Origin: Actinomycetes bacterium
GTDB lineage: Bacteria; Actinomycetota; Acidimicrobiia; Spongiisociales; UBA5794
DNA length: 38,831 nt
NCBI GenBank assembly: GCA_023336815.1
Contig: JAMBLJ010000061.1
Coordinates: forward strand, 1 to 38,831
Direction: 5' to 3'
Under the pieces are notes generated by a model. That model did no database searches. It had not been told where the DNA came from and worked only from the letters and a program-made list of their open reading frames with translations. Shown here one piece after another: positions 791-11,207 of the stretch (its first letter is position 1; each line of letters begins with the position of its first letter). The position numbers and the translations under genes were made by a program.

Positions 791-1705
791 CTACTCACCC
801 TTCGCTGGTGTCCGCGTGTTCGTAAACGAGAACTGATGGCTCCCCCCAGAGCTGGCCTTGATCGTGACGGTGAATGGTTTCTCAGAGGGCGCCTCAGGGA
901 ATTCCACCTTCATCTCCCACTTGCCGTTCTCGTTGGCGACCACACTGTTGCCCCCGTACTCTGACTGCGCCTTGACGGTGGCGCCAGGCTGGGCGGTGCC
1001 GTAGAAGACGTCGTAGGGGATCTCTTCAGCACACGAGCCGTAGGTCTGGAAGGCTGTGAACGCTACGGTCTCTTTCTCCCTGGCCGGCTTCTCTGTTTCC
1101 GCTTCCTTGGGTGCGTCGTAGTACACGGTCACTGCAGCCCTACTCACCTGACCGTCGGCGCTGATGGCCTCGAACGTGACACGGTTCTTGCCAGGTGACA
1201 GGACGAGTTCTATCCGCCACTCACCGCCACCCTGCTTTGCTGTGTACTTGCCGCGATGGACCGTCGCACCATCCGAGACGAGACCGCCAAAGACGACGAC
1301 CTTGTTCTCGACCCGTGCGCCGTCGACAGGGTGGGTGATCTTCAGCTCCGGTGCGGGCTGGTCGGTCTTCTTCGGCTCTTCCGATTCCTTGGCTGGAGCA
1401 GGTTCCTTCTTAGCCGGAGCCTCCTTGGGTTGTGTCTCGGTGAGTGTCCCCTTCGGCTTGTCTTCCTTTGCCGCAGGCTGTTCCTTGACTGATGGCGCCT
1501 GTGTGGCCGACTCGGCATGAGTTGTGGTGGACGACTCGATGCGCGCAACCGTTGTTGTCGGGCTCTCTTTGCTGGTGAACGAACCCTGGGACGACGTGGC
1601 CTCCGAGTCGTTCGTGAGTCCCGCACCGACGCCAGCGATCGCGGCTCCTCCGAGGAGAACGAGAACGAAGACTGAGATCGCCACGAGGAATGGTTTCCCC
1701 TTCAT
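791..1705 (-). CDS. Membrane-anchored protein with two beta-sandwich-like ectodomains
   Basis: A protein of about 304 residues. It begins MKGKPFLVAISVF with one hydrophobic anchor or signal segment (about residues 6-27), then a low-complexity Thr/Ser/Lys/Glu/Pro linker to about residue 115. Domain A (from PELKITHPVDGARV) resembles an Ig-like or bacterial adhesin fold. Domain B (from QTYGSC) carries YGSCxExIxYDxFxGxAxPG, SEYG and GxWxxKVxFP. Both domains match those in the protein encoded at 2437-3384, so the two are paralogs. This copy lacks the cytoplasmic N-terminus of the other. The ATG at 1705 has AAAGGA upstream; an ATG at 1726 is the alternative. The gene is divergent from the ECF sigma gene and has the same promoter motif. 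The domain fold is inferred, and the ligand is unknown. Confidence 0.75.
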   Translation of the reverse strand: MKGKPFLVAISVFVLVLLGGAAIAGVGAGLTNDSEATSSQGSFTSKESPTTTVARIESSTTTHAESATQAPSVKEQPAAKEDKPKGTLTETQPKEAPAKKEPAPAKESEEPKKTDQPAPELKITHPVDGARVENKVVVFGGLVSDGATVHRGKYTAKQGGGEWRIELVLSPGKNRVTFEAISADGQVSRAAVTVYYDAPKEAETEKPAREKETVAFTAFQTYGSCAEEIPYDVFYGTAQPGATVKAQSEYGGNSVVANENGKWEMKVEFPEAPSEKPFTVTIKASSGGSHQFSFTNTRTPAKGE

Positions 1706-1759
1706 GGATGATGGTCCTTTCATCATTGCTGGTGTGCCTTCGATCCCGATGCCCTACCT

Positions 1760-1789
1760 GTTACACGCTTGAGTCAATGCTCGGGTTTA
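1760..1789 (-). promoter_or_regulatory. Predicted ECF promoter for the divergent ectodomain gene
   Basis: Read on the minus strand, TAAACC (1789-1784), a 16-bp spacer and CGTGTAAC (1767-1760). The AAC in the -35 element, the CGT in the -10 element and the 16-bp spacing fit the general ECF sigma promoter pattern. The same arrangement occurs upstream of the sigma gene. The following bases (AGGTAGGG) are also shared with the other promoter (GGGTAAGG). Confidence 0.65.
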
Positions 1790-1831
1790 CCAAAATCCTT
1801 CGTTTGTGATCTCTCGCTGCCGATATCGAGA

Positions 1832-1861
1832 TAAACCTCGACGGCCGTCGACACGTGTAAC
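1832..1861 (+). promoter_or_regulatory. Predicted autoregulatory ECF promoter of the sigma gene
   Basis: TAAACC (1832-1837), 16-bp spacer, CGTGTAAC (1854-1861), matching the divergent promoter at the same spacing. Transcription would be expected to start around 1866-1868, only a few bases before the ATG at 1871, so the message would be nearly leaderless unless translation begins at the GTG at 1937. Confidence 0.65.
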
Positions 1862-1870
1862 GGGTAAGGG

Positions 1871-2440
1871 ATGACAGTACGACCACGATCGCGCGGCAGG
1901 TCCGCACTACAGACGACACGCCTGTCGTCGAGCGTCGTGCGCGCACGAGAGCCGTTCGAAACGTTCTACGAGCGGGAGTTTCGCCTGGTCGTGGGGCTTG
2001 CATACGCACTGTCGGGCAGTAGATCAGCCGCCGAGGATCTCGCACAGGAAGCCTTCATCGCGGCACACAGCAACTGGGACAAGATCGGTTCGTATGACAA
2101 GCCGGAGGCCTGGGTTCGGCGTGTTGTGTCAAATCTTTCCGTGTCACGTTTCCGCAGGGGCCTCACCGAGGCGAAGGCAATGACGAGGCTCGGAGGATTT
2201 CGTGCCGAAACCGCTGCTCTGCCAGACCTTCCAGCCGAGGCTGAGGAGTTCTGGGCGCATGTGCGCAAGTTGCCAAAACGACAGGCTCAGACACTGGCGC
2301 TGCACTACCTGGAGGACAAACCGGTGGCGGAGATCGCCGTCATCCTCGAATGTTCCGCAAGCACCGTGAAAGTCCATCTACACAAGGGTCGCCAGCGTCT
2401 TGCCTCGCGACTCGGTGTCAACCTTGGAGAAGATCGATGA
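1871..2440 (+). CDS. ECF-family RNA polymerase sigma factor
   Basis: A 189-residue protein with the two ECF regions. Region 2 (about residues 27-95) includes FYEREFRLVVGLAYALSGS, AEDLAQEAFIAA and WVRRVVSNLSVSRFRR. Region 4 (about 125-180) has LPKRQAQTLALHYLEDKPVAEIAVIL and a recognition-helix stretch STVKVHLHKGRQRL. It directs RNA polymerase to alternative promoters. Its own upstream region and that of the divergent gene carry a shared ECF-like promoter, so autoregulation is likely. Its stop overlaps the start of the next gene (ATGA, 2437-2440), the usual arrangement for a sigma/anti-sigma pair. The first 22 residues are basic and unlike region 2; a GTG at 1937 is an alternative start without a convincing ribosome site. 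Confidence 0.9.
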   Translation: MTVRPRSRGRSALQTTRLSSSVVRAREPFETFYEREFRLVVGLAYALSGSRSAAEDLAQEAFIAAHSNWDKIGSYDKPEAWVRRVVSNLSVSRFRRGLTEAKAMTRLGGFRAETAALPDLPAEAEEFWAHVRKLPKRQAQTLALHYLEDKPVAEIAVILECSASTVKVHLHKGRQRLASRLGVNLGEDR

Positions 2441-3384
2441 CAACGCTCGACACCCTCGCCCGATCATCCGCTGAAGCGATCCATCACAGTGTTGCGTTCG
2501 TGCCGGTTCGCCCTGCAAGCGTTGGAACCGCGGCGGGGGTAGCAGCGCTGTGGAAGTTCGGGAGCTACGCCGTTGCAGGAGCGCTTGCCGGTGTCGCTGT
2601 GGTCGGGGCGCTCATCATCGCGGGACCCGACGAGGCAGAAGTGTCCCGTGACCCTGTTCCTTCGACCACCGTGGCGCCTACGACGATCCCGATCGAGGAG
2701 GCCGTGCCGCCCACCACCGCTCCCGTACCTTCAGCGAAGACGCCAGCGCCTGTTGTGCCGCCGAGCAGCGCTATAGCACCGACCACCACGACCGTATCGG
2801 ACGCTGAGCCACCCATGCTCGAGATCCTGTCGCCATCTGATGGTGAGCGCGTGAAGACGAAGATCACCACCTTCGTGGGAAGAACCGAGCCGGATGCGAC
2901 CGTTGTCGCAAGCGGAAAATTCGAAGCCACGGTTGCAGCAGACGGGTCGTGGTCGATCGATCTCGTGCTAGCGCCCGGTGCAAACGGTGTCGTGTTCGTT
3001 GCAACAGACCCTGCTGGCAATGCAACGTCGAGACGGATGACCATCACTCTCGACGTTGAGGAACCCAAAGTGACGACCACTACCACCATCAAGGAGACGA
3101 CAACCACGACCATCGCTGCATGGGAATTCGTTGCCAACCAGAAGTACGGGTCGTGTGTTGAGCCGATTGCCTACGACATCTTCAGCGGGAAGGCCACACC
3201 AGGGACAACGGTGTCGATCTCGAGCGAATACGGTTCCGGGACGACGACCGCGAACGGTGACGGAACGTGGAATCTCAAGGTTCTGTTCCCTTCTGCGCCT
3301 TACAACAAGGTGTTCCTTGTAACGGCAAAGGACCACACGGGTGCCAAGCGGACCTTCGAGATGGTGAGCCTCTACCAGGGGTGA
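2437..3384 (+). CDS. Candidate membrane anti-sigma factor with two-domain ectodomain
   Basis: A 315-residue protein translationally coupled to the ECF sigma gene. Residues 1-42 are predicted cytoplasmic (MTTLDTLARSSAEAIHHSV), residues 43-62 form a transmembrane helix, then a Thr/Pro/Ser-rich linker leads to an Ig-like domain at about 128-208 (LEILSPSDGERVKTKIT). A second Thr-rich linker precedes domain B (about 228-315, QKYGSCVEPIAYDIFSGKATPG). The overlap with sigma and the inside-out topology suggest that it holds the sigma factor at the membrane and releases it on an outside signal. The cytoplasmic part is too short for, and lacks the Cys/His pattern of, a ZAS anti-sigma domain. The role is therefore inferred from context. 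The ectodomains are paralogous to those encoded at 791-1705. Confidence 0.7.
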   Translation: MTTLDTLARSSAEAIHHSVAFVPVRPASVGTAAGVAALWKFGSYAVAGALAGVAVVGALIIAGPDEAEVSRDPVPSTTVAPTTIPIEEAVPPTTAPVPSAKTPAPVVPPSSAIAPTTTTVSDAEPPMLEILSPSDGERVKTKITTFVGRTEPDATVVASGKFEATVAADGSWSIDLVLAPGANGVVFVATDPAGNATSRRMTITLDVEEPKVTTTTTIKETTTTTIAAWEFVANQKYGSCVEPIAYDIFSGKATPGTTVSISSEYGSGTTTANGDGTWNLKVLFPSAPYNKVFLVTAKDHTGAKRTFEMVSLYQG

Positions 3385-10398: not shown

Positions 10399-10962
10399 AT
10401 GGCGGATCAGGCGACATTCGAAGACGATGCAATGCAGTACGCGTCCCAGCTGTACTCAGCTGCGCTTCGTATGACCCGCAATCCTGCTGATGCTGAGGAT
10501 GTTGTGCAGGAGACGTTCCTCAAGGCGTATCGGGCCTACGGATCGTTCCAGGAAGGGACCAACCTCAAAGCCTGGCTGTACCGCATCCTGACGAACACGT
10601 ACATCAACAAGTATCGAAAGGCCCAGCGTCGTCCGAACGAGGTTGAGCTTGGGGAACTGCAGGATCTGTATCTCTTCAAACGTCTCGGTGAACCCTCGGG
10701 AGCATCCGAGTCTGCCGAGTCTCAGGCTCTTGACATGTTCGTCGACGAGGACATCGTTGCCGCGATCGAATCGCTTCCCGAGAACTTCCGGTTGCCTGTT
10801 CTGTACGCCGATGTGGATGGATTTTCCTACAAGGAGATCGCCGAGATCCTCGATGTTCCGATCGGAACTGTGATGTCTCGACTACATCGGGGAAGAAAAG
10901 CGCTGCAAAGGAAGTTATGGAACGTGGCAGTTGACCGCGGACTAGTGGAGCCAACAGGATGA
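10399..10962 (+). CDS. SigR/SigH-like ECF sigma factor (redox stress type)
   Basis: A 187-residue ECF sigma factor. Region 2 reads [59 protein letters not shown], very like the actinobacterial SigR/SigH group. Region 4 has [42 protein letters not shown]. That group controls the thiol-oxidative stress response through a zinc anti-sigma factor. The next gene, overlapping by ATGA at 10959-10962, fits this. It begins 34 bp after hisA. No convincing SigR-type autoregulatory promoter was seen upstream. Confidence 0.93.
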
Positions 10963-11207
10963 GCGGTTGCAATGAAGCAGTCGAATACGTATATCAATAC
11001 ATCGATGACGAGTTGACGACGACTCGAAAAGCGCGCATCAAGTGGCACCTCAAACGGTGTGGACACTGTATGGATGCCTTTACGTTCGAGACAGAACTCA
11101 AGGAGAGAATCGCATCTGGCGGAAAAACTGAGCCAGGTCCGGAACTTTTTGACTCCCTCCGAGCGTTACTACAACAAGAACGCAAGAACGAGGACCCGGA
11201 CTGCTGA
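10959..11207 (+). CDS. RsrA-like zinc anti-sigma factor
   Basis: An 82-residue protein with C4, H30, C34 and C37. The C-x25-H-x3-C-x2-C spacing is that of the RsrA/RshA ZAS anti-sigma factors, which bind zinc and their sigma when reduced and let go upon disulfide formation. The segment [28 protein letters not shown] is diagnostic. It overlaps the sigma gene by ATGA, so it is co-translated. It has no transmembrane segment and should be cytoplasmic. Confidence 0.9.

Follow-up and report, generated by a model that had tools for sequence, protein, structure and literature searches.

Regulons of extracytoplasmic function (ECF) sigma factors are usually open-ended, and in circuits of the FecI/FecR/FecA type an ECF sigma factor serves only a handful of promoters, and the protein that it induces has a part in sensing. 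The clostridial anti-sigma factors RsgI bear CBM3, PA14 or GH10 modules like those of the proteins they regulate, and sigma-I6 and sigma-I3 of Clostridium thermocellum recognise their own promoter as well as enzyme promoters (PMC4711584). In CnrY, two helices bind sigma4 and sigma2, and class II anti-sigma domains are below about 50 residues (PMC7406223, PMC4598750). Here we analyse a locus at positions 791–3384 of contig JAMBLJ010000061.1 (38,831 nucleotides (nt), the window) from an Actinomycetes bacterium of the class Acidimicrobiia (assembly GCA_023336815.1). An ECF sigma gene is coupled there to the gene for a membrane protein, the sensor and putative anti-sigma factor, and shares a predicted promoter with a divergent gene, the target, which probably encodes a secreted copy of the sensor ectodomain. 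The conservation of this promoter in about 30 genomes predicts a closed two-unit circuit whose output duplicates its own input domain. The novelty lies in the combination of an ECF sigma factor with a putative antagonist of one very short helix, a two-unit predicted regulon and a probably secreted duplicate of the whole sensor ectodomain. Sensors that share outer modules with their targets are already known from SigI/RsgI (PMC4711584), and an earlier note on this DNA, which called the layout not known as described, was too strong on this point. The locus contains the following features, with d1 and d2 denoting two immunoglobulin (Ig)-like domains:

791–1705, minus strand: target gene, predicted secreted protein of 304 amino acids (aa) from the ATG at 1705 (alternative starts 1723, 1726); from N- to C-terminus signal peptide, charged linker, d1, d2
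1634–1705, minus strand: predicted target signal peptide, aa 1–24, ending in AIA before G; G20, A22 and A24 invariant among 25 homologues
1115–1351, minus strand: target d1, Ig-like (Glucodextran_B)
815–1060, minus strand: target d2, Ig-like, with the sole cysteine, C225, at about 1031–1033
1760–1791, minus strand: predicted sigma-dependent target promoter, GGTAAACC-N16-CGTGTAAC
1830–1861, plus strand: predicted autoregulatory promoter of the sigma operon, GATAAACC-N16-CGTGTAAC
1871–2440, plus strand: ECF sigma gene, regions 2 and 4; nearest NCBIfam model SigE-fam_strep, below its cut-off
2437–3384, plus strand: sensor gene, putative anti-sigma factor of 315 aa, in ATGA overlap with the sigma gene
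2443–2496, plus strand: conserved cytoplasmic helix of the sensor, aa 3–20, of LDxRARxAAxxIxxSV type, proposed sigma-binding element
2560–2622, plus strand: sensor transmembrane (TM) segment, about aa 42–62, from predicted helix 32–61 and sequence
2812–3054, plus strand: sensor d1, aa 126–206, Glucodextran_B Ig-like domain
3121–3372, plus strand: sensor d2, aa 229–312, Ig-like, without a Pfam match
3154–3156, plus strand: sensor C240, in d2, the only cysteine of the protein

The sigma protein consists of sigma-70 regions 2 and 4 only, in about 190 aa, as defines an ECF sigma factor (Pfam Sigma70_r2, E = 2.5e-13; Sigma70_r4_2, E = 7.1e-15; both above cut-offs), and scores 66 bits with TIGR02937 (cut-off 42.9). 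Its best model, the SigE family TIGR02983 (SigE-fam_strep), reaches 121.8 bits, below the cut-off of 141.55, and the protein is not a member of that family. The sensor gene overlaps the sigma gene by the 4-nt ATGA (2437–2440) and encodes, in order, a cytoplasmic end of about 42 residues, a membrane span, a Pro/Thr-rich linker, d1 and d2. An AlphaFold model of the sensor comprises helix 3–20, helix 32–61 and two beta-sandwiches with confidence (pLDDT) above 90. By Foldseek, the fold resembles Ig-like repeats of bacterial adhesins, surface-layer (S-layer) and matrix proteins and glucodextranase, in matches that are unspecific (TM-score below 0.36), and a PDB sequence search with the full sensor returned one marginal antibody match only. 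Glucodextran_B (PF09136) matches d1 in both ectodomains (E = 2.5e-12 and 3.7e-07; 47 and 30.4 bits against a Pfam gathering cut-off of 27) and all 24 sensors checked (E up to 0.01); no Pfam model matches d2 of either protein. The two ectodomains are 41% identical. Three features that the earlier note had read from the letters are thereby borne out: the ATGA coupling, the short cytoplasmic end devoid of a zinc motif, and the divergent gene with the same two-domain ectodomain.

The closest described systems each match the locus in part. As in SigI/RsgI, the outer modules of a membrane protein beside a sigma gene resemble those of its target (PMC4711584); that system differs in its SigI-family sigma factor, RsgI N-terminal domain, many enzyme targets and polysaccharide-binding modules, whereas the present locus combines an ECF sigma factor with a single predicted target that duplicates the whole ectodomain. 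No Pfam or NCBIfam match to the RsgI N-terminal domain was obtained for the sensor, and its partner is an ECF sigma factor in place of SigI. With CnrH/CnrY it shares a very short cytoplasmic segment, the lack of a zinc motif and a single membrane span. CnrY, however, has two helices and relies on CnrX, a separate periplasmic sensor (PMC4598750, PMC7406223), whereas here one conserved helix is followed by the membrane-proximal end of the TM helix, and the Ig-like ectodomain sits on the same chain; no sequence match between the sensor and CnrY was found. At about 42 aa, the cytoplasmic segment falls within the class II size range (under 50 aa); set against the two helices that clamp sigma2 and sigma4 in that class, it has one conserved helix (3–20) and a second predicted helix continuous with the TM segment. 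FecA is an outer-membrane receptor unrelated to FecR, whereas none of 24 sensors has a Pfam match to the FecR domain and the host belongs to Actinobacteriota. Zinc anti-sigma factors (RsrA/RseA type, anti-sigma domain class I (ASDI)) resemble the sensor in being encoded directly after the sigma gene, yet the sensor has no HxxxCxxC, no three-helix bundle, no domain longer than 50 aa and no Pfam match in its cytoplasmic part.

Shared promoter and predicted regulon

The element TAAACC-N16-CGWGTDAC precedes the sigma genes, and the same element precedes the partner genes, where the spacer is always 16 although 14–22 was allowed in the search. A matrix built only from 35 distinct sigma-gene promoters was scored on 35 partner genes. 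It finds the promoter at 30/30 partner genes of sigma-bearing genomes, with scores of 22.4–38.6, against a background that is down to 9.3 at rank 71 among 1.43 million positions. The five partner genes without a site belong to genomes of family f2 that lack an orthologous sigma gene; one (G229) is cut at the contig start. Loci for the matrix scan were chosen around sigma and partner genes, and genome-wide statements rest on strict-pattern and profile searches. By the strict pattern, the window's genome contains exactly two sites, in the target promoter (1761–1790) and in the sigma-operon promoter (1831–1860). Across 296 genomes of the class, the window's order alone yields site pairs, with one or two sites per genome; outside this order the pattern gives 3 matches versus 11 for the reversed control. 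Because the window's genome holds two sites and its relatives nearly always one or two, the regulon is predicted with high confidence to comprise two transcription units, the sigma operon and the target gene. The sigma ATG lies 9 nt after the -10 element, and in the window's family an ATG or GTG follows at about 7–12 nt; because the start codon is so close to this element, the sigma-operon mRNA is probably leaderless.

Further sites were recorded within the order. Extra sites in G246 and G229 precede other sigma genes, a paralogue in G246 and a gene cut by the contig end in G229. A perfect site on contig C79 of G050 (L113:3988) lies upstream of a gene that encodes a small membrane protein of unrelated type, which may be a different target in this f8 genome, and a site on contig C91 of G005 (L114:4156), about 200 bases from the contig end, probably precedes a truncated target gene. 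Sites with a spacer other than 16 (G019, G020, G042, G048, G058 and one in the window's genome) had no sigma, sensor or target gene downstream and were dismissed as chance matches.

Pairing and duplication of sensor and target

Orthologous sigma genes (at least 255 bits; paralogues reach at most 240 bits) are present in 38 of the order's 109 genomes, and the sensor gene adjoins every one of them (38/38), so that the pattern named in the earlier note as refuting, a sigma gene without either ectodomain protein in most relatives, does not occur in these genomes. Because 26 of the 27 relatives examined first keep the exact 4-nt overlap, the layout is conserved far beyond chance. A separate partner gene was found in 27/38 sigma-bearing genomes, either divergent, about 10 kb off or on another contig. 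The named relatives are all uncultured genomes, most labelled Acidimicrobiia. The locus also occurs in public genomes labelled Acidobacteria or Armatimonadetes (L121, L122, L136, L153), which look mislabelled.

A tree of d1 and the terminal d2, based on a domain census in which overlaps between the d1 and d2 models were resolved, separates 25 sensors and 25 partners into two clades (support 98/94). On this tree, the two ectodomains stem from one ancient duplication without repeated copying. Together with the conserved, almost private common promoter, this duplication strongly supports the sensor-and-target arrangement proposed in the earlier note. Targets carry one to three copies of d2, sensors of families f1–f5 always one. 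Sensors of family f8 (L077, L078, L174, L175, L176) lack d1 and bear four to six copies of d2; this family yielded no separate target and usually a single promoter site. Sensor and target distances correlate when sigma is controlled for (partial r = 0.55, fewer than 1 in 2000 permutations, 23 genomes), with sigma standing in imperfectly for the species tree.

Nearly every sensor contains one cysteine, located in d2 (YGSC), and nearly every target has a cysteine in exactly one d2, almost always the last, whatever the copy number. In genus g8 it is missing from both proteins; the G026 sensor also lacks it, and no G026 partner was found. This joint presence and loss suggests contact or shared chemistry between sensor and target.

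The target N-termini (25 homologues) open with a short basic stretch that leads into a hydrophobic core and then A-x-A, with Q, G or A next, which is the signature expected of a signal peptidase I site. Because of this signal-peptidase-like site, the target is probably secreted and not anchored in the membrane; what the earlier note took for a plain membrane anchor is probably a cleavable signal peptide, as the invariant G20, A22 and A24 also indicate. The linker behind this signal peptide is charged, mostly acidic and of low complexity and leads to d1 and the d2 copies, and no anchor or sorting signal was seen at the C-terminus.

A short conserved helix as candidate sigma-binding element

The cytoplasmic part of the sensor has no cysteine, and conservation within it concentrates in the N-helix (residues 3–20), which at 2.86 bits per column equals the level of d1 (2.95) and d2 (2.97); the juxtamembrane, TM and linker regions are at about 2.0. 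L4, A8, S/A11, I15 and V19 form one face of the helix. A profile built from the N-terminus without any sigma information matched weakly (E = 1e-5 to 5e-3) in G010, G012, G038 (two), G004 and G019, and every matched protein is encoded directly downstream of a paralogous sigma gene found separately. When partners of paralogous sigma genes were picked by position (n = 22), 20/22 displayed the 4-nt overlap and 22/22 a membrane span near residues 33–55, a span being required for selection. A simple helix pattern occurs in 13/22 of these partners versus 18/798 control open reading frames, a contrast that is indicative since the pattern was drawn by eye. Because the N-helix is conserved at the level of the ectodomain and related helices start the proteins encoded just after paralogous sigma genes, it probably serves to bind sigma, and the sensor as a whole very likely acts as an anti-sigma factor. 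We further infer that short sigma-binding elements of this kind are widespread; in length the N-helix compares with class II anti-sigma domains, that of CnrY among them. It would indicate a broad class of anti-sigma factors that no family model covers, and many orphan sigma partners of Actinobacteriota could be annotated with its help. A literature search, with the ECF reclassification outside its coverage, brought up no anti-sigma relative, whether solved or described.

Paralogous sigma genes accompanied by one-span proteins with a short N-helix (L188–L207) were recorded across Acidimicrobiia and other Actinobacteriota, mostly with the 4-nt overlap. The outer parts of the paralogue partners are diverse and include beta-propellers, a SnoaL-like domain and unknowns. 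Three of these partners have weak N-terminal matches to the NCBIfam CU044_5270 family (NF038083), to which the window's sensor has no match.

Proposed circuit and rival explanations

Gene layout, promoter sharing, pairing, duplication and the conservation of helix and cysteine are established from sequence; for sigma binding, release, transcription, the ligand and the sign of feedback, we infer the following scheme. The membrane sensor would keep sigma inactive through its amphipathic N-helix, and a changed encounter of its Ig-like tip (d1–d2) outside the cell would free sigma. Freed sigma would then transcribe its own operon and the gene for the secreted d1–d2 protein from their near-identical promoters. 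Because sensor and target derive from the same ancestral ectodomain, the product most likely binds the sensor's extracellular partner or the sensor itself, presumably via the terminal d2; a shared ligand or direct contact is thus the favoured expectation. Such binding might reset the sensor or place more binding module at the cell surface, and the first outcome, negative feedback, comes slightly short of an even chance. Contact through the unpaired cysteines is conceivable but doubtful. Taken as a whole, a closed single-purpose sigma circuit seems reasonably likely, and its logic (competition, feedback or direct pairing) is directly testable. A more far-reaching version, which we consider unlikely, would have sigma devoted to one soluble copy of its sensor, the two meeting via the terminal Ig-like domain, perhaps in a mixed disulfide, so that the cell gauges the amount or occupancy of one secreted protein; it would also place the sensor in an undescribed anti-sigma class of Actinobacteriota, with a single short helix before the membrane span joined to many ectodomains.

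Several observations weigh against this scheme. No separate target was found in 11/38 sigma-bearing genomes; these include family f8 and two genomes of f6, on intact contigs, and the others may reflect incompleteness. Four f2 genomes (L060, L160, L161, L163) carry a target-like d1–d2 gene without an orthologous sigma gene and without the promoter, so that a separate function of the target is possible. The mean hydrophobic moment of the N-helix is 0.37 versus 0.26 for shuffled sequences, one fifth of which reach 0.37, and a PDB sequence search detected no relative of a solved structure for this helix. The joint cysteine loss in g8 is one event in one clade, and the stand-in used in the distance correlation adds to these points.

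One rival reading holds that the sensor is not an anti-sigma factor, sigma being controlled otherwise and the gene pair being just an operon; a cytoplasmic part of only 42 residues lacking a known anti-sigma domain would fit it. Against this reading, the sensor gene adjoins the sigma gene without exception, the ATGA overlap is constant, the N-helix is conserved and paralogous sigma genes have similar N-termini beside them, and a short two-helix segment suffices in CnrY (PMC4598750, PMC7406223); we regard it as very unlikely. The lone d2 cysteine raises a different possibility, a thiol or redox sensor in which these cysteines react with an extracytoplasmic oxidant or thiol and the target is a sacrificial scavenger that need not touch the sensor. 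The retention of a single cysteine in both proteins and its absence from both in g8 would fit, and a periplasmic cysteine of OsrA controls the sigma factor EcfF (PMC4598750). However, g8 keeps both genes with normal promoters despite having no cysteine, and one sacrificial thiol per 300–450-residue protein makes a poor scavenger, which leaves this explanation improbable.

The remaining alternatives concern what the target does outside the cell. It could belong to the structural proteins of a surface or biofilm and contribute Ig-like repeats, and the sensor could be a captive copy that gauges assembly, making the circuit a homeostat of surface layer or matrix. The fold matches to adhesins, S-layer and matrix proteins, the variable d2 number in targets against the constant single copy in f1–f5 sensors, and the lack of any predicted regulon member besides the sigma operon and the target would all suit such a role; yet those matches are unspecific and the target C-terminus bears neither anchor nor sorting signal, and we consider a homeostat possible, with the chances against it. 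The earlier note had offered ligand binder, competitor or shield as roles of the target, and a shield or decoy guarding the sensor from a hostile ligand such as a phage, toxin or protease would also suit a secreted paralogue of the sensor tip that the sensor itself controls. Sensors and targets have evolved vertically and slowly, in two clean clades that give no signs of rapid diversification, and the neighbouring genes showed no link to defence or mobile genes, so that a decoy has little probability. The proposed sigma circuit with a shared ligand or direct sensor–target contact is the best-supported reading.

Among the genes around the locus, in the neighbourhoods examined, functional clues come only from sigma and sensor. 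Two genomes, G290 and G032, have an ECF sigma gene directly 3' of the sensor gene; the one in G032 is SigR-like. The window's genome encodes a further protein with a d1-like domain and no d2, cut by the contig end (G000 contig C174, L073:2701–3588), and d1-only proteins of similar kind are widespread in the window's family. A second ECF sigma gene in the window (10399–11207) shows an ATGA overlap with the gene for an 82-aa protein bearing HLKRCGHC (HxxxCxxC); by these sequence features it is a SigR/RsrA-like zinc anti-sigma pair, an in-window contrast to the sensor locus.

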